Assembly: GCF_021117295.1 (NCBI RefSeq)
Contig: NZ_CP088247.1
Span: 1,565,001 to 1,629,000, forward strand
Reading direction: 5' to 3'
Source: Methylorubrum sp. B1-46
GTDB lineage: Bacteria; Pseudomonadota; Alphaproteobacteria; Rhizobiales; Beijerinckiaceae
Length of the DNA stretch: 64,000 nt
A model generated the notes under the pieces. The model was not told the origin of the DNA. It ran no database searches and was given only the letters and a program-made list of their open reading frames with translations. Position numbers and translations under genes: made by a program. This document shows, one piece after another, positions 7,583 to 15,036 of the stretch (positions within the stretch are counted from its first letter, which is position 1; every line of letters begins with the position of its first letter).

Positions 7583-8179
7583 TCAGTTTGAAATTTTAGC
7601 CGCAGCGATTAGTGCCTTCAGCGCTTCGACGGTCAGAGGCGGGCTGCTCGTGTGGACCATACGGTGACAATTCGAGCAGAGGACGGTTACCTCATCCACA
7701 GTTACTGGTGGAGATTTCGGTGTGACTTTTGAAATTGGGTTGAGATGATGGCACTCGATGAAGCCGATCCCGATTTCACCATAAAATTTCGAAAAGTCAA
7801 AATCGCACGCCCGGCAAATCGATTTGTATTTTTCCTTTGCGGCAGCTACCAAACCTTTGTTGCGCGTAAGTATCTGTACTTCTGTTAGCCGCCGCTCGCC
7901 TTCGTTGTATTCCTTTTTATCTTCGTCCTTGTCGATTATGCAGACGTATCCCAATTCTTCTAATTCATATTTTGAGTCCCTGGAATTTTTTTCTGATGGC
8001 TTCGTTGGTGGATTTTTTGAAGCTGCGTAGATTGCTTTTAGATCGTAATATTTGCTATTGTAAATGAGATAATAGCTTTTTGCAGAGCGCCCGGAAGCAT
8101 ACCGCTTCAAAAATTGCTCTTTTCCAATTTGATCGTATTCTTTGATGCGGGCTAAAACTGACGCTTTAGTCGCCGTCAT
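7583..8179 (-). CDS. HNH endonuclease, probably horizontally acquired
   Basis: 198 aa, lysine-rich and much lower in GC than its neighbours. The C-terminal half carries an HNH fold with both zinc pairs and the catalytic histidines: CRAC at about residue 125, ECHHLNPIS near 145, and LCSNCHRMVH near 170. The N-terminal half (residues 1-70) has the look of the DNA-binding or specificity region of stand-alone restriction-like HNH proteins (SAKSYYLIYNSKYYDLKAIY). Its start lies within the 3' end of a transposase remnant, with a 14-base overlap. Base composition and neighbours mark it as part of an insert. It may act in defence against foreign DNA; target unknown. Confidence 0.85.
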   Translation of the reverse strand: MTATKASVLARIKEYDQIGKEQFLKRYASGRSAKSYYLIYNSKYYDLKAIYAASKNPPTKPSEKNSRDSKYELEELGYVCIIDKDEDKKEYNEGERRLTEVQILTRNKGLVAAAKEKYKSICRACDFDFSKFYGEIGIGFIECHHLNPISKVTPKSPPVTVDEVTVLCSNCHRMVHTSSPPLTVEALKALIAAAKISN

Positions 8180-8438
8180 TCGATCCCCCTTGCGCTACGC
8201 GCGTCTTTTGAGGCCGACGCTTCCCCGGCGCTAGCGCAGCCACCCCGACCAGCGCGGCGATATCTTCCATGCTCCACAGCCAATCCGAGATCCCCGCTGC
8301 CATAGTCGGACTCTTCCGATGCTTCTCGTCCGGCTTCACGAAGTTGTACCAGTCGGTGTAGAGCGCCACCATTTGAGCGTGGTTCTTGATGCCTTCAAAC
8401 TCGTACTTGCCGAGTTGTCCACCTCCGTTGTCTCTCAC
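8166..8438 (-). pseudogene. C-terminal remnant of an IS1-type transposase
   Basis: About 90 residues match the end of IS1-type transposases of alphaproteobacteria: NHAQMVALYTDWYNFV, then SPTMAAGISD-WLWSMEDIAALV. The N-terminal DNA-binding part and most of the catalytic domain are missing, and I see no inverted-repeat ends. It is not functional. Together with the low-GC HNH gene that follows, it marks the insert that divides the copper locus. The 250 bases upstream (8439-8688) hold no recognisable gene. Confidence 0.75.
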
Positions 8439-9108: not shown

Positions 9109-11283
9109 ATGCCTTCCCGTCAACGGGCCGTGCCGCGCGCCGCCCTGTCCTCGCGCCTGCTCGCCTCGACGCTGCTCGCCGCCGGCTTCACCCTCGCCGC
9201 CCCGGCCTTTGCCGAGTCCCTTGACTCGCCGGAGAGCGCGACCCCTTCCTCGACCACACTTGCCGAGATCAGCGTTTCCGGCACCGGCCGCGCCTCCGCT
9301 CCGGGCGAGACGGCCGGCTCGCTGACCGTGCCGAGCGTGGCCGCGCAGCGGGCGGCGGTGAACGCCACCGTCGGCTCCGTCGCCTTCGTCGACGCTGCGA
9401 ACTTCCAGAACCGCTACGCCAACACCGTGCGCGACGTGCTCAAAGACGTGCCCGGCGTGTTCGTGCAGGAGCGCTACGGCCAGGAGATGCGCCTCTCGAT
9501 CCGTGGCTCCGGCATCGCCCGCGGCTTCCATGTCCGCGGCATCGAGCTGCTGCAGGACGGCATCCCGCTCAACCTCGCCGACGGGAGCGGCGACTTCTAC
9601 CAGATCGACCCGCTCTCCTTACGCTCGGTCGAGGTCTACAAGGGCGGCAATGCGCTCACCTTCGGCGCGACCACGCTCGGCGGCGCGGTCAACTTCGTGA
9701 CGCCGACCGCCTACACGGCCCTGGCGCCGAACATCGCCCGCATCGACGGCGGCAGCTTCAACACGATCCGCGAGCACTTCCAGGTCTCGCGGATCTCAGG
9801 CCCCGCCGATGTCCTGATCTCCGGCACGGCGACCAATTCCGATGGATTCCGCGATCACGAGACGCAGCGCACCCGCAACGTGAACGCCAATATCGGCTAC
9901 CGGCTCGCGCCGGGGGTCGAAACCCGGTTCTACCTCGGCTTCTACGACACCGACCAGAAGCTGCCCGGCTCGCTCTCGCTGTTCAACGCCCTGAACAATC
10001 CCCTTCTCGCCAACCCGGTGGCTATCACCGGCAACCAATCGCGAAAGGTGACGACGGAGCGCATCGCCAATCGCACCTCATTCGAACTCGAAATCGGGCG
10101 CCTCGACATCGATTCCTGGGCGATTCACAAGAACCTTAACCACCCGATCTTCCAGGTGATCGACCAAGACGGCTGGACCTACGGCGTCGCGCCGCGCTGG
10201 GCCGGCACGTTCGATCTCGGCGGCTTCCGCAACGACCTGATCCTCGGCCTGCGGGCGTTTGCCGGCATCAACGAGGCCCGGCAATTCGTGAACGTGGCGG
10301 GCCTGCGCGGGGCCCAGACGCTCAACGCGCGCCAGAGCGCCTCGAACATCGAGGCCTATGCCGAGAACCGGTTCTGGTTCCGGCCCGACATGGCGCTGAT
10401 GACCGGCGCCAAGCTGTTCTCCTCAAACCGCACCTTCAGCGACAGGGGCGGCTTGGCCGCCAACCCCGCCGCGCGCTTTGCCAACATCACCTACGAGGGC
10501 ATCAACCCGAAGATCGGACTGCTGTGGCAGCCGCTGCCGGACATCCAGGTGTTTGCCGACATCACCCGCTCGCGCGACGTGCCGGACTTCTCCGACCTCG
10601 TGCAGACCAACCTGCTGCGCACCACCTTCGTGCCGCTGGAGGCCCAGCGCGCCTGGACCTACGAGGTCGGCTCGCGCGGCCGGATCGACCGGCTGGCCTG
10701 GGACGTGACGCTCTACCGGGCGGAGGTGCGCGACGCACTGATCAACTTCACGCCCAATCCCGGCCTGAACATCCCGGCGGCGACCTTCAACGCCCCGCGC
10801 ACCCGCCATCAGGGCGTCGAGGCCGCCGTGACCCTCGACCTCGCTGCGGATCTGACCGGCATCGGCGACGGGCTCAGCCTGACCCAGATCTGGACCCACA
10901 ACGACTTCCGCTTCGTCGGCGACCCGGTCTTCGGCAACAACCGCATCGCCGGCGTGCCGGTGAACGTGCTGCGCACGGTGCTCGGCTACCGGCATCCCAG
11001 CGGCTTCTACCTCTCACCCACCCTCGACTGGGTGCCCGAGGGCGCGTTTGCGGACCACGCCAACACTCTGAAGGTGCCGGGCTACGCCCTGCTCGGCCTC
11101 CAGACCGGCATCGACTTCACCAACGGCGTCTCGCTGTTCGTGGATGCCCGCAACCTGACGGACGAACGCTATGTCTCCGACATCTCGGTGGTGACCAACG
11201 CCGCGACCGTGGCGGGCGGACCGGTGGCGTTCTTTCCGGGCAACGGCCGCAGCGTGTTCGGAGGCGTGCGGGCCTCGTTCTGA
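9109..11283 (+). CDS. TonB-dependent outer-membrane receptor
   Basis: 724 aa. The signal peptide ends PAFA. A TonB-box-like segment (LAEISVSGTG, about residue 50) leads into the plug domain (about 75-190, with DVLKDVPGVFVQERYGQEMRLS and VEVYKGGNALTFGA), then a 22-strand barrel ending in a C-terminal Phe (GVRASF), as needed for outer-membrane insertion. It takes up a chelated metal or cofactor using TonB energy. Neighbouring DUF2946, PCuAC and SCO genes suggest copper or a copper chelate. Fe or lanthanide chelates cannot be excluded from sequence alone. Confidence 0.9.
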   Translation: MPSRQRAVPRAALSSRLLASTLLAAGFTLAAPAFAESLDSPESATPSSTTLAEISVSGTGRASAPGETAGSLTVPSVAAQRAAVNATVGSVAFVDAANFQNRYANTVRDVLKDVPGVFVQERYGQEMRLSIRGSGIARGFHVRGIELLQDGIPLNLADGSGDFYQIDPLSLRSVEVYKGGNALTFGATTLGGAVNFVTPTAYTALAPNIARIDGGSFNTIREHFQVSRISGPADVLISGTATNSDGFRDHETQRTRNVNANIGYRLAPGVETRFYLGFYDTDQKLPGSLSLFNALNNPLLANPVAITGNQSRKVTTERIANRTSFELEIGRLDIDSWAIHKNLNHPIFQVIDQDGWTYGVAPRWAGTFDLGGFRNDLILGLRAFAGINEARQFVNVAGLRGAQTLNARQSASNIEAYAENRFWFRPDMALMTGAKLFSSNRTFSDRGGLAANPAARFANITYEGINPKIGLLWQPLPDIQVFADITRSRDVPDFSDLVQTNLLRTTFVPLEAQRAWTYEVGSRGRIDRLAWDVTLYRAEVRDALINFTPNPGLNIPAATFNAPRTRHQGVEAAVTLDLAADLTGIGDGLSLTQIWTHNDFRFVGDPVFGNNRIAGVPVNVLRTVLGYRHPSGFYLSPTLDWVPEGAFADHANTLKVPGYALLGLQTGIDFTNGVSLFVDARNLTDERYVSDISVVTNAATVAGGPVAFFPGNGRSVFGGVRASF

Positions 11284-11299
11284 GGGCCCGAATTTCCCC

Positions 11300-11324
11300 C
11301 GCCGCCGGCTGACGGCCGGCGGCG
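11300..11324 (+). terminator. possible terminator after the TonB receptor
   Basis: A 10-bp perfect stem, CGCCGCCGGC at 11300-11309 and GCCGGCGGCG at 11315-11324, with a 5-base loop, 17 bases after the receptor stop. No T-run follows. The remaining sequence to 11589 holds no gene but becomes AT-richer after about 11465 and probably carries the promoter of the caspase gene. Confidence 0.5.
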
Positions 11325-11589
11325 ATTCGCGACTCGTCATCCGGCGCTCGGAGGCCCTCGCCCAAGCCTGAGGGTGCATCGAAACAACGATTCGGGGCCC
11401 GTGAGACGGACGGCGCCCTGCGGGCAGCGGGATTTGCGAAACGAGCGCGGACGGCTCGGACGCCCCTAATCACATTTCGCAAATCGGATGGATTGATTTC
11501 ATCAAAGCCCTACAGCAGACTTACTGTATTCGGTCTTTGGAAAATTTGAGATTTCAGGCAGACATCCCATCAATGCGGGAGCATGGATC

Positions 11590-13437
11590 ATGCCAAATTC
11601 ACTGCGTATCCTCTGTGTGCACGGTCTTGGCGATCAGCGCCAAAGCAATTGGGACGCAGATTGGTCGAGCGCGATCAAGCGCGCTGTCGGGGCGAACGCC
11701 GGTGTTGAACTGGATTTCCGGTTCCTGACCTACGATCCCATCTTCGAGCAGACCGACATCAGCTTTGCGGAGACGCTCAATGCCTTCTGGAAGCTGGCGC
11801 GCAGCGGTCTCGGCGGCTTGTTTCGCCAGCCGCGCGGCCCTGTGAGCAATATCTCGGACCGTCTCCGCTGGACCGCCGGCTACGTCGTCGCCTGGGTGGA
11901 GGATGAACGGTTCCAGCAGGAAACCCGTACGCTCGTGCTCGATACGGTGCGCGACTACAAGCCCGACATTGTCCTCGCCCATAGCCTGGGCTCTCTCGTC
12001 ACTTACAACGCCTTCTCACACGCGGATGCGGCGGAAAGCGAGGCGGCCAAGGCGCTCGCCAACACGCATTACGTGACGTTCGGATCGCAGATCGGCAATC
12101 CTTTTGTCCTGGGAAATCTGACATATGGACGCGTTCAACGTCTTGCCGTCCGGCACTGGCATCATCTCTACAATGAGCACGACGATGTCTTCACCGCGCC
12201 CCTGAGAGTTCAGGGCGTCGACAACTTCAATCAGCTTCTCACGCCGTTCGATCTTCCCGGCTTCGGCGATCATGATGCCGCCGGCTACCTCACGCATACC
12301 GTGACGCAAACCTCCTTCTGGACGCCGGTGGTCGATCTCGCGGCCCGTCGTCCCAGGGCGGTGGGGCTTGCGGCGACGGCGGAGGCCAGTCCTTGGAATC
12401 GGTCGCTTCCGGCCACGCCCCCCTCCACACGGCGCAAGGCGCTGCTGATCGGCATCGATGATTACCCCGATCCCAGCAATCGGCTGTCGGGATGCATGAA
12501 CGATGTTTTCGCGATGAGCGCGACCCTGCAGGATTGCGGGTTCGAGCCGGAGCAGATTCGCGTCTGCCTGAACGAGCGCGCCACCGCAGACGGCATCCTC
12601 TCCCGGCTCGAATGGCTGGTCGACGGTGCGCAAGCCGGTGACCAGTTGGTGTTCTTTTACTCCGGGCACGGCGCGCGTGTGCCGGAATACGGCCAACAGG
12701 AAGAGCCGGACCGGCTCACCGAGACGCTCGTGCCGTATGACTTCGACTGGACGCCGGAGCGCGGTGTGTCCGACGAGCAGATCAACGGCTTCTACGCGCA
12801 ACTCCCTTACGACACCCAGCTCCTGATGATCTTCGACTGCTGTCATTCCGGCAGCATGCATCGCGATGGCGCTGGTCGCGCGCGCGGGATCACGCCCCCG
12901 GACGACATCCGGCACCGCCAGCTCCGATGGAATCGCGAGGAGGAGATGTGGGTCGAGCGTGACTTCACCCCACTCAACAAGGCTTTTGCGAGCCAAGCGG
13001 CGAAACGGCAGGCCTTTTTCGGCACCAACCTCGCCACGGTCCGCCTGGGACGCGCCGCCCTGCTCCGCGTCAGCGACCAGAAGAGTTACGATAAGGCCAA
13101 AAAGGCGAGCGGAGCACCGACAGGCCCATTCCTCCCTGTCATCATCGAAGCCTGTGGAGAGGAGCAGTATTCCTACGAGTACCGTCACGGCGCGACCAGC
13201 TACGGCGCCTTCACCTTCTGTCTCACGTCCATTCTGCGCAAAGAGAAGAACATTACCTTCTGGGACCTCGTGCAGCGTGCGACGGAGCGGCTGGAACGGC
13301 TCGGCTATAACCAGAAGCCGCAAATTCTGGGGCCGGCTATCGATCTCGATGCGAAGGTGCCGTTCGAGACAGGGCGAGGCGGCAAGGCGCCCGCCGGCAA
13401 CCTGCCCGGCTCGGCGACGCCGCGGACCTCCGGGTGA
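11590..13437 (+). CDS. serine-hydrolase and caspase-like (metacaspase) fusion
   Basis: 615 aa; GGGAG precedes the ATG. No signal peptide, so cytoplasmic. Residues 1-230 form an alpha/beta-hydrolase domain: oxyanion motif HGLGD at 11-15, nucleophile elbow A-H-S132-L-G, and a late HTVTQTSFW segment that may supply the histidine. Residues about 275-600 form a C14 caspase-like domain: KALLIGIDDYPDP, then YSGHGA with His360, then FDCCHSGS with Cys418 as the expected nucleophile. Prokaryotic caspase-like proteases often act as effectors in defence or cell death, and a lipase-like domain could target membranes. Whether the protease activates the hydrolase is inference. It stands alone, flanked by unrelated genes. 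Confidence 0.85.
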   Translation: MPNSLRILCVHGLGDQRQSNWDADWSSAIKRAVGANAGVELDFRFLTYDPIFEQTDISFAETLNAFWKLARSGLGGLFRQPRGPVSNISDRLRWTAGYVVAWVEDERFQQETRTLVLDTVRDYKPDIVLAHSLGSLVTYNAFSHADAAESEAAKALANTHYVTFGSQIGNPFVLGNLTYGRVQRLAVRHWHHLYNEHDDVFTAPLRVQGVDNFNQLLTPFDLPGFGDHDAAGYLTHTVTQTSFWTPVVDLAARRPRAVGLAATAEASPWNRSLPATPPSTRRKALLIGIDDYPDPSNRLSGCMNDVFAMSATLQDCGFEPEQIRVCLNERATADGILSRLEWLVDGAQAGDQLVFFYSGHGARVPEYGQQEEPDRLTETLVPYDFDWTPERGVSDEQINGFYAQLPYDTQLLMIFDCCHSGSMHRDGAGRARGITPPDDIRHRQLRWNREEEMWVERDFTPLNKAFASQAAKRQAFFGTNLATVRLGRAALLRVSDQKSYDKAKKASGAPTGPFLPVIIEACGEEQYSYEYRHGATSYGAFTFCLTSILRKEKNITFWDLVQRATERLERLGYNQKPQILGPAIDLDAKVPFETGRGGKAPAGNLPGSATPRTSG

Positions 13438-13563
13438 TGACCCGGGCACTCCGCAAAGGGCCGCCATGGGTAGACGAGCCCGGCCCTCGGGTAAGGGCAG
13501 CCGGCAAGCGACGGCCGATCGCGGGGAGCGTGAGAGAATCTTCCGAGCCGCGAAGGAGCGACC

Positions 13564-15036
13564 TCAATACTGAACCGTCGCACGAAGCCCCAGCACGGCG
13601 GCGTTGCGCACACGGCGCCCTTCCGGGTCGCGCGGATTGGCGATGCCGCCGCCGGGATGCAGGATCAGTTGCACGTCGGGCTGCACGGTGAAGCCCGGCA
13701 CCACCACGGCCTGATAGGTCGCCTCGATCACCGTCTCGGCCCGCCGCCGCGGCATCGCCGTGCCGGTCAGGATGATGGTGTCGATGTCGGACCGGCGGGC
13801 ATCATCGGAGAGGCGGGCATAAGCGAGGCTGAGGCCGAGCGTATCGTCGTCGCGGCCCGGAAGCAGGCCTTTGTAGGCGAGCCCGGCATCGAGATAGGCG
13901 GAAACGAGGCTGGAGCGGGTCGGCGACCACGCCGCGCGCACGAAGAAGCCGAGCCCCTCGTCGTCCTTGCCGGTTTCCCGATAGAGCGTCTGGTCGTAGA
14001 TCGCGTAGATCCCGGCATTGCCGCGCAAAGGGCGGCCGACGCCCGACGCGTTCGGGTCGGCGAGCGGCAAGCCGGTGTTGTCGAGGCGCAAGCTCTCGAA
14101 GCGCCCGAAATGTTGCCAGCCACCCAGCGTGATGTCACCGGGCAGGCTTTTGGCATCCGCCTCCGTGTTGAAGGCATAGGTCGCCTCAGCGACGACCAGG
14201 GCCGGGTCGCGGGTGCGGAAGTTGGTGCCGGTGCGGTCGAGGCGTTGCGCCTCCGGGTCGTCGCCGGGGCGGTTGGCGCCGGCCGGATCGCCGTTGTAGA
14301 GCCCGGCCTGGAGCGAAAATCCGTTGCCCGGCACGCATTTGGCGCGGATCGCGGGCGAGGCGAGCGGATAGGCCGGGCCGCCGCTCGGCAGGTTGAGCCC
14401 GGTGATCGCCGGCCAGCCGAAGGTCGAGTTCACGAACAGGGTTGCGGTCTGGCTGACGAAGAATTCGGTGTCGGCCGCCTGCTGGCCGATGCGGATGCCG
14501 AGTTGACCCTCGAAGAGCTGCTGGTCGAGCCACAGCACGTAGAGGCGTGAAGACGGCAGCGCCTCGATCACGCTGGCGGCCAGCAGGTTGCCGACATAGT
14601 AGCGCGAGAGGCCGGTGCCGTGGATGAAGTAGGCGTTGGCGTGGACCGTGGCGCCGTCCCAGCCGGCGAGCCGTTGCAGGTCGAGGTTGAGCCGCAGGTT
14701 CAGCCGATCCTCGACGATCGCCCCCTGGCGGAGGCCGCCGACGGGATTGCCCAGCGTCTCGGCGATGTAGGTGAGACTGTATTCGATGCCCCGCTGCCTC
14801 AGCAGGGGCCGCAGCCCGAGGGGATCGCCGAAGGGTCCGAGCGAGGGCTCGATCGAGCGCACGTAGCCGCCCGAGGCCTGGCTCGTCGATTCCGGCTGGG
14901 AGACCGAGATCCGCGGATCGCCGCCCGCGCCCTCGTAGACCGGCCGTCCGGTGGGCTGTGCGAGGGCGGGCGGTCCGGCGAGAGCCGTCAGAGCGAGCGC
15001 GACGGAAAGAACGCCTGGAACGGGGCGGGGGGACAA
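13564..15036 (-). CDS. OprB-family carbohydrate-selective porin
   Basis: 490 aa with a signal peptide ending PALAQ. After a short linker the whole chain matches the OprB porin family: GIEYSLTYIAETLGNPVGG near residue 85, LYVLWLDQQLFEGQLGIRIGQ near 165, then repeated beta-strand blocks and a C-terminal strand ending VQY with an aromatic last residue. It forms an outer-membrane pore, typically for sugars or small organic solutes. It lies between the hydrolase-caspase gene (convergent) and the GntR regulator (same strand, 149 bases upstream), so it may be controlled with the TRAP transporter, though the sequence does not show this. Confidence 0.88.
   Translation of the reverse strand: MSPRPVPGVLSVALALTALAGPPALAQPTGRPVYEGAGGDPRISVSQPESTSQASGGYVRSIEPSLGPFGDPLGLRPLLRQRGIEYSLTYIAETLGNPVGGLRQGAIVEDRLNLRLNLDLQRLAGWDGATVHANAYFIHGTGLSRYYVGNLLAASVIEALPSSRLYVLWLDQQLFEGQLGIRIGQQAADTEFFVSQTATLFVNSTFGWPAITGLNLPSGGPAYPLASPAIRAKCVPGNGFSLQAGLYNGDPAGANRPGDDPEAQRLDRTGTNFRTRDPALVVAEATYAFNTEADAKSLPGDITLGGWQHFGRFESLRLDNTGLPLADPNASGVGRPLRGNAGIYAIYDQTLYRETGKDDEGLGFFVRAAWSPTRSSLVSAYLDAGLAYKGLLPGRDDDTLGLSLAYARLSDDARRSDIDTIILTGTAMPRRRAETVIEATYQAVVVPGFTVQPDVQLILHPGGGIANPRDPEGRRVRNAAVLGLRATVQY

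Follow-up and report, generated by a model that had tools for sequence, protein, structure and literature searches.

A metacaspase fused to a serine alpha/beta hydrolase in Methylorubrum, a one-gene accessory and possible self-processing protease-hydrolase pair

We analyzed 64,000 nucleotides of Methylorubrum sp. B1-46 (RefSeq assembly GCF_021117295.1, contig NZ_CP088247.1, positions 1,565,001 to 1,629,000 of the forward strand), hereafter the window. An open reading frame (ORF) with an ATG start at 11590-13437 on the plus strand encodes a protein of 615 amino acids (aa) that joins an N-terminal alpha/beta-hydrolase domain to a C-terminal C14 caspase-like domain, as an original prediction made from the letters alone had proposed. 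The two enzymes may work as one protease-hydrolase pair. The features of the gene and of its site are given below with their positions in the window; counts out of 91 refer to an alignment of the window protein, 40 of 120 listed protein relatives, and 50 of 79 loci, and confidence is the predicted local distance difference test score (pLDDT).

9109-11283, plus strand: TonB-dependent receptor, left flank (PF00593/PF07715; 91% in three congeners)
11287-13562, no strand: stretch that the congener G660 lacks at this site, one gene with its flanks
11590-13437, plus strand: whole gene of the alpha/beta-hydrolase-metacaspase fusion, 615 aa (ORF and full-length relatives)
11590-12363, plus strand: N-terminal alpha/beta-hydrolase domain, residues 1-258 (model pLDDT 89.5, fold matches, stand-alone homologues)
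11620-11631, plus strand: HGLG oxyanion-type motif, residues 11-14 (H11 89/91, G12 91/91, G14 84/91)
11809-11859, plus strand: putative lid loop, residues 74-90, low confidence and variable length (pLDDT <50 at 75-87; 13-35 aa)
11833-11838, plus strand: R82-G83, where the metacaspase may cut the lid loop (basic 33/35; [RK]G enrichment)
11977-11994, plus strand: nucleophile elbow AHSLGS with Ser132 (90/91)
12181-12183, plus strand: Asp198, acid of the hydrolase triad (91/91; 19/19 stand-alone relatives)
12271-12273, plus strand: His228, base of the hydrolase triad (91/91; 19/19 stand-alone relatives)
12364-12429, plus strand: variable interdomain linker, residues 259-280 (low pLDDT; no [RK]G enrichment in 256-283)
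12430-13374, plus strand: metacaspase (C14) domain, residues 281-595
12667-12669, plus strand: catalytic His360 (91/91)
12841-12843, plus strand: catalytic Cys418 (91/91)
12883-12888, plus strand: R432-G433, candidate p20/p10 processing site (basic 35/35; [RK]G 34/35)
13564-15036, minus strand: OprB porin, right flank (PF04966, E 1.5e-84; 91-92% in three congeners)

In a Pfam scan of the whole protein, residues 281-579 matched PF00656 (Peptidase_C14; E 1.5e-28), and nothing else reached E<=1. The solved sequences closest to the protein are metacaspases (TbMCA2, E 7.3e-24), and the caspase fold, which is followed by just 20 residues, is nearest to solved metacaspases, placing it among the C14 metacaspases. 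The N-terminal domain alone has weak hydrolase matches in Pfam (the best being Abhydrolase_6, E 0.071). When residues 1-258 were modeled alone the mean pLDDT was 89.5, and the order of elements in the model (strand 127-131, Ser132, helix 133-143; strand 189-194, Asp198; strand 213-217, His228) is that of an alpha/beta hydrolase with a Ser-Asp-His triad and a nucleophile elbow. Alpha/beta hydrolases and lipases are among the structures that align best. The Foldseek list for this domain opens with weak azoreductase matches (E 3.9e-4), and the fold call was based on the aligner's Z, the aligned length and the triad rather than on that ranking. The top fold match, a DDHD protein (PA-PLA1/Nir2; PF02862) at 16% identity, was tied with ordinary esterases (carboxylesterase, Z 12.8; Bacillus subtilis lipase A, Z 12.4; rows within 1 Z are tied). 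DDHD was absent from the Pfam matches of 65 family members, and a search for it gave 0 of 299 genomes, yet the control genomes likewise gave nothing; a DDHD identity was not confirmed. The first strand of the modeled fold begins at residue 3, which leaves no room for a signal peptide, and the protein is likely cytoplasmic, in line with the original prediction.

Both catalytic sites had been read correctly from the sequence. The hydrolase triad is kept almost without exception in the alignment (S132 in 90, D198 and H228 in 91), so that the Asp and His on which the hydrolase call depended are in place, and the caspase dyad, within SGHG and D-x-C-H motifs, is invariant. Positions of the metacaspase S1 pocket for Arg/Lys specificity are also kept (C302 in 89, D305 in 91, S358 in 86 and D416 in 91 of 91), and we take them to be equivalent to the S1 pocket residues of TbMCA2. 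The Ca2+ ligands of CgMCA-I are Asp198, Asp214 and Asp245 (PMC9622860, in excerpt). Judged by spacing, two of these positions are retained in the fusion (D374, 87/91; D395, 91/91) and the third, at C+7, is Arg (R425, 90/91). This hints at a trigger other than calcium, and we do not claim the Ca2+-dependent type I metacaspase subtype for the fusion.

At E<=1e-3 there are at least 1473 protein relatives, scored among the 7996 candidates sharing most words, and all 120 relatives among the matches listed contain the caspase domain, with 85-100% of the query covered. Scanning one genome per species (84,980 species) uncovered 245 stretches encoding relatives. The 79 loci retained belong, by their titles, to Alpha-, Beta- and Gammaproteobacteria, Planctomycetota, Verrucomicrobiota, Gemmatimonadota, Nitrospirota, Acidobacteria, Myxococcales and Uhrbacteria, many of them being metagenome bins. 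The order of the two domains is constant across several phyla at 33-87% identity. The family tree intermixes phyla (15 changes for 8 groups by a quick method, the minimum possible being 7), which is compatible with transfer and proves nothing. A search with the N-terminal domain returned 87 matches resembling fragments or partial copies of the fusion, a few of which may be split or stand-alone copies (P0122, P0143, P0134 and P0203, of 250-300 aa on long contigs). Some members carry more: five fused proteins (L088, L089, L091, L093 and L098, the last possibly incomplete) have 386-531 extra N-terminal residues, identified in L089 as a PF04185 phosphoesterase of the phospholipase-C type (Pfam E 4.5e-64) and matched in the four others by BLAST at 45-85% identity. 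At four loci (L057, L059, L087 and L100; Pfam on the L057 and L100 genes) a caspase-cluster gene adjoins the fusion.

In Methylorubrum and its relatives the gene is an accessory. Three congeners (G660, G663 and G678) lack the fusion, and their flanking receptor and porin are 91-92% identical to those of the window. Receptor and porin are 63 bases apart in G660 and about 2280 bases apart here, where the fusion gene alone lies between them, which bears out its description as a lone gene. The gap of G663 (871 bases) contains VapBC (Pfam PSK_trans_fac and PIN) and that of G678 (1456 bases) VapBC-like ORFs with a GNAT-like ORF, judged by eye. Since the fusion is present or absent between the same flanks and a congener has VapBC there, we regard it as one-gene cargo at a site that accepts toxin-antitoxin genes. 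In the loci of two congeners, the VapBC genes of this receptor/porin site lie at 3817-4458 of L134 (Pfam-supported) and, as look-alikes accompanied by a GNAT-like ORF, at 5866-6552 of L145. Counting its own genome, fused relatives occur in 2 of 190 genomes of the class, 2 of 199 of the family, where the second copy is partial (residues 72-592), and 2 of 99 of the genus. Its own genome has a single full-length copy and one weak caspase-domain match on contig C2. The fusion gene is thus a one-gene accessory, not a housekeeping gene. The borders of the inserted stretch show no convincing insertion repeats, and a scan for promoters and terminators gave nothing exceeding chance. The five neighboring ORFs scanned with Pfam are an HNH ORF, a 90-aa ORF without a match, the receptor, the porin and a GntR regulator. 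The HNH-type ORF (7583-8438, minus strand) has a PADLOC type IV restriction match (E 1.6e-7) and a Pfam HNH match just below the cut-off. With the 90-aa ORF it occupies 7391 to about 8600, and since the alignments of L023, L132, L133 and L134 skip this stretch, the receptor here seems to be flanked by two separate insertions.

The hydrolase domain also exists by itself, and there it tends to sit beside proteases. A profile search with this domain found a second group (P0230-P0239, 281-354 aa), seven of whose ten members were aligned and retain the triad. Across the stand-alone relatives the triad is complete in 19 of 19. In hhalign a Hymenobacter hydrolase was linked to the fused family with 98.4% probability. 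Searches of plasmid records with tblastn matched 44 records with P0232 as query and 57 with the Hymenobacter hydrolase. We opened 16 plasmid records, picked by rank and organism spread and not at random, and in 11 of them a protease is adjacent or fused to the hydrolase (caspase in 9, CHAT in 1, trypsin in 1). Eight of the nine caspases have a Pfam C14 match, and that of L176 was recognized by motif alone. These loci are as follows.

L169, Hymenobacter: caspase adjoins hydrolase
L171, Agrobacterium: caspase adjoins hydrolase
L172, Bradyrhizobium: caspase adjoins hydrolase
L173, Sinorhizobium medicae: caspase adjoins hydrolase
L174, S. chiapasense: caspase adjoins hydrolase, near-identical to L173
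L176, S. meliloti: neighbor with caspase motifs, without a Pfam match
L177, Ensifer: caspase adjoins hydrolase
L179, S. terangae: caspase adjoins hydrolase
L164, Leptolyngbya: neighbor is a large protein with C14, TPR and PIN matches
L175, 4001-6006, Sinorhizobium fredii: hydrolase, then a CHAT-domain gene, with a 4-base overlap
L178, 2912-4900, Streptomyces jietaisiensis plasmid: hydrolase fused behind a trypsin domain
L165, L166, L167 and L170: WD40 or NACHT/AAA-WD40 neighbors

The hydrolase and protease ORFs overlap by 4 bases in L164, L171, L173, L174, L175 and L177. No partner gene was seen beside the hydrolase of L168, and several of the stand-alone loci have transposase, recombinase or intron genes nearby. 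L178 is a parallel fusion of the same kind of hydrolase with another protease fold. In 385 genomes of the class, sampled with less selection, there were six hydrolase matches, the own genome among them. The three best (E 1.3e-50 to 3.5e-27), of which one lies inside a hydrolase ORF of 840 aa, adjoin a caspase-like ORF; the model used to recognize the caspases was derived from those that partner the hydrolases on the plasmids. On contig C1 of its own genome there is a distant stand-alone relative of the hydrolase (L186, 4959-5942) with no caspase alongside. As stand-alone hydrolases adjoin proteases, the fusion joins parts that are neighbors elsewhere.

Where might the protease act on the hydrolase? 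From its place in the fold, the loop of residues 74-90 may be a lid, and in the full model residues 75-87 have a pLDDT below 50. Cut-site statistics were obtained from 35 representatives with less than 60% identity to one another and 2000 shuffles. Most columns of the loop vary freely, yet 31 of the 35 have Arg at position 82 and 2 have Lys. Arg or Lys followed by Gly ([RK]G) occurs in 25 of the 35 lid loops, against a shuffled mean of 13.0 (standard deviation 2.7, maximum 22), and the reversed dipeptide shows no excess (12 vs 13.1). Of the 91 aligned sequences, 88 have a basic residue at position 82 and 78 have Gly at position 83. In the caspase, [RK]G recurs in the p20/p10 loop at R432-G433 in nearly all representatives, against a shuffled mean of 20.4. 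In the interdomain linker (256-283) there is no excess of [RK]G (10/35 vs a mean of 10.5), and RR occurs in 26/35 (vs 20.1, standard deviation 2.5). Release of the hydrolase by cleavage of the linker is not favored given the absent [RK]G excess, and the RR excess keeps that possibility alive. Metacaspases cleave after Lys and Arg (PMC9622860, in excerpt). Given this preference and the basic residue kept in the lid loop, we read the loop as a gate that could be cut by the protein's own metacaspase; a structural role for R82 is also possible. Among the nine stand-alone hydrolases of small operons, eight (L169, L172-L177 and L179) carry, at one place ahead of the nucleophile, an [RK]G with P, L or V as the next residue. 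The self-cleavage proposed in the original prediction is made more plausible by the basic residue of the lid loop and by the pairing of hydrolases with proteases, with the difference that the likely cuts would fall in the lid and the caspase loop, not in the linker.

Caspase-like proteases act in cell death or defense in bacterial gasdermin and type IV Thoeris systems. Gasdermin and Thoeris are named in a 2025 paper whose excerpts report that proteases open gated nucleases in several defense systems and suggest other proteolytically activated enzymes (PMC12799240). No pore-former or TIR gene is found among the nearest genes scanned. In the canu caspase-nuclease and in the HamM/Avs nuclease-protease pairs, as excerpted from the same paper, disordered insertions that carry conserved cut sites gate a hydrolytic effector, which a partner protease opens, and the fusion may work in much this way. 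The nuclease-protease pairs differ in having an MBL-fold DNase in a separate gene, whereas here a serine alpha/beta hydrolase is part of the metacaspase chain, and canu differs in its MALT1-like caspase with an Ig-like fold behind it, where our protein has just the 20 residues. No MBL-fold nuclease partner of the canu type occurs among the five neighboring ORFs scanned. In VMAP systems, the excerpted text states, caspases always have an alpha/beta-hydrolase gene as neighbor (Kaur et al. 2020, PMC7159879). In the VMAP ternary systems caspase and hydrolase are separate and come with VMAP, MoxR and vWA parts, whereas here they form a single protein and Pfam detected no VMAP, MoxR or vWA gene among the same five ORFs; the likeness to VMAP-associated hydrolases is one of gene arrangement. 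For EACC1-caspase systems, autoproteolytic effector deployment has been proposed (PMC7159879, in excerpt). As far as those excerpts go, a caspase is joined to another domain in both cases, but there it is N-terminal with a variable partner, here C-terminal with a constant one and a TonB receptor upstream, and the NCBIfam model NF047832 scores our protein at 55 bits against a cut-off of 140. Effectors linked to bDLD3 include caspase and alpha/beta-hydrolase (a follow-up of Kaur et al., PMC8195603, in excerpt), and bacterial metacaspase proteins have been found with 71 Pfam domain types, including one GDSL-lipase case (Asplund-Samuelsson et al. 2012, PMC3501461, in excerpt). Arabidopsis metacaspase 9 and Trypanosoma brucei MCA2 are chains without a hydrolase domain, unlike the fusion, which also has Arg at one CgMCA-I Ca2+ ligand position. 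From these comparisons the family appears to sit between known systems, as a metacaspase joined to a serine hydrolase that may be gated. Among the matches listed from PubMed Central, with most subscription papers and preprints outside its scope, the fused family is undescribed and the hydrolase family is not treated as a protease-paired effector.

We propose, with about even confidence, that the fusion is a single-polypeptide protease-hydrolase pair, a self-processing pro-hydrolase. The protein would start out as an inactive pro-enzyme, with access to Ser132 restricted by the lid loop. Some trigger would activate the metacaspase, which would process itself near R432 and cut the lid after R82, freeing the hydrolase. 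The freed hydrolase would attack an ester substrate, most likely membrane phospholipid, and this would stop or kill the cell; damage to membrane lipids by the hydrolase had also been suggested in the original prediction. Such a gene would have no need of a partner gene, and could be gained or lost as one-gene cargo, like toxin and conflict genes. We favor this proposal because of the conservation of triad and dyad, the pairing with proteases, the [RK]G of the lid and that of the small-operon hydrolases, the variants with an N-terminal PF04185 part, which we count in its favor, the printed precedents, and the presence or absence of the gene at one site. A bolder version, which we offer tentatively, is that the hydrolase family is a constant protease-gated effector paired repeatedly with caspase, CHAT and trypsin, making it the hydrolase counterpart of the nuclease-protease pairs. 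The window gene would then be a minimal one-chain cell-suicide or immune device moving as a single cargo, with sensing, protease and lipid-attacking effector together.

These suggestions should be weighed against several observations that do not fit them well. Position 82 is non-basic in 3 of 91 members and position 83 is not Gly in 13, Ser132 is replaced by Asp in L093, and the Ca2+ site of CgMCA-I is incomplete, one of its three ligand positions being R425. Among the stand-alone hydrolases L171 lacks the [RK]G-P/L/V motif, the column of R82 in a MAFFT alignment is basic in 3 of 19 relatives vs 17 of 17 fused proteins, and three of four WD40-neighbored hydrolases (L165, L166 and L167) have [RK]G at other places in their insertions. 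Hence, their likeness to R82-G83 is one of place and kind, not of alignment. The neighbor of L164 shows no caspase Cys motif by pattern search, and the three weakest of the six matches in the genome sample have no caspase alongside. Mobile replicons and defense genes give no help either. None of 72,556 plasmid and 50,697 phage records carries a fused copy at 80% coverage; caspase-domain matches on 204 plasmid records and one phage record never reach 80% of the query, and ten viral contigs match at 24-35% identity within the caspase part. PADLOC families show no excess by eye at +-1 genes compared with +-7/8 genes, over 25 of 45 and 25 of 65 families. The sets compared, 103 proteins from 64 loci at +-1 and 93 proteins from 41 loci at +-7/8, exclude 10 of 79 loci as near-duplicates, proteins >900 or <100 aa and contig-end ORFs; five eligible loci contributed no +-1 protein. 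On the protein itself PADLOC matched the generic caspase model PDLC02987 alone (E 9.6e-21) and no model of a named anti-phage system. For the link to phage defense in the original prediction the outcome is mixed: the gene, rare in the genus, is not a housekeeping one, but known defense genes show no visible excess beside the family, so that a role in phage defense is a conjecture. What suggests a conflict gene is the company kept by the stand-alone hydrolases, together with the site and the gene's presence in some genomes and absence from others; the fusion's own neighbors do not enter into it.

Could the roles of the two domains be reversed? The hydrolase might be a sensor or regulator that, by hydrolyzing or binding a lipid-like ligand, switches on the metacaspase, which as the effector would cut cellular proteins after Arg/Lys. 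We find this unlikely: a pure sensor would not need the triad that is kept in 90-91 of 91 members, the carboxylesterase and lipase A rows of the structure comparison are tied within 1 Z, and the pairing of stand-alone hydrolases with three protease folds fits the hydrolase as the constant output. A peaceful role seems similarly doubtful. The protein would then be an enzyme of stress or turnover, its accessory metacaspase having an esterase tethered to it, and would serve quality control of the envelope or of proteins. Such a role would agree with the location of the gene on a 5.4-Mb contig, with the absence of the fusion from the plasmid and phage records searched, and with the families listed at +-1 (25 of 207), which are mostly single metabolic ones. 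The commonest among the families listed are another caspase (4/103) and class-V aminotransferase, matrixin, astacin and AAA_16 (3/103 each). A few neighbors are PG_binding_1, matrixin-like or C70, as this role would have it. Same-strand genes directly downstream of some fusions, with Pfam on one of each pair, are papain-like C70, matrixin-like or peptidoglycan-binding (L055/L058, L079/L095 and L066/L067). No conserved neighbor emerged: the most frequent cluster within two genes comprised 7 members, of which four came from Pseudomonas loci. At 19 of 75 loci a gene on the same strand is found within 100 bases upstream, and at 22 of 75 downstream, so some copies of the fusion may sit in operons. 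A stress or turnover role is harder to reconcile with the patchy distribution among genomes of the class, family and genus, with a one-gene indel site that is also used by VapBC, and with stand-alone relatives that adjoin caspase, NACHT/WD40 or CHAT genes, several near transposase, recombinase or intron genes. Finally, a chance joining of two unrelated enzymes without functional coupling is very improbable. In its favor, the caspases of the split pairs are only distant relatives of the caspase encoded in the window (best E 4e-7, others 0.01 or weaker), and the fusion thus did not arise just by the merging of such an operon. Against it, the fused order is kept over several phyla and the protease pairings recur in separate lineages with three folds.

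Fusions hint at which proteins work together, and the halves of this one are neighboring genes on the plasmids of other bacteria. Should the metacaspase indeed free a lipase-like enzyme through a cut in its lid, gating by proteases in bacterial cell death would reach beyond pores and nucleases, and many phyla would hold one-gene systems that lack a known sensor.
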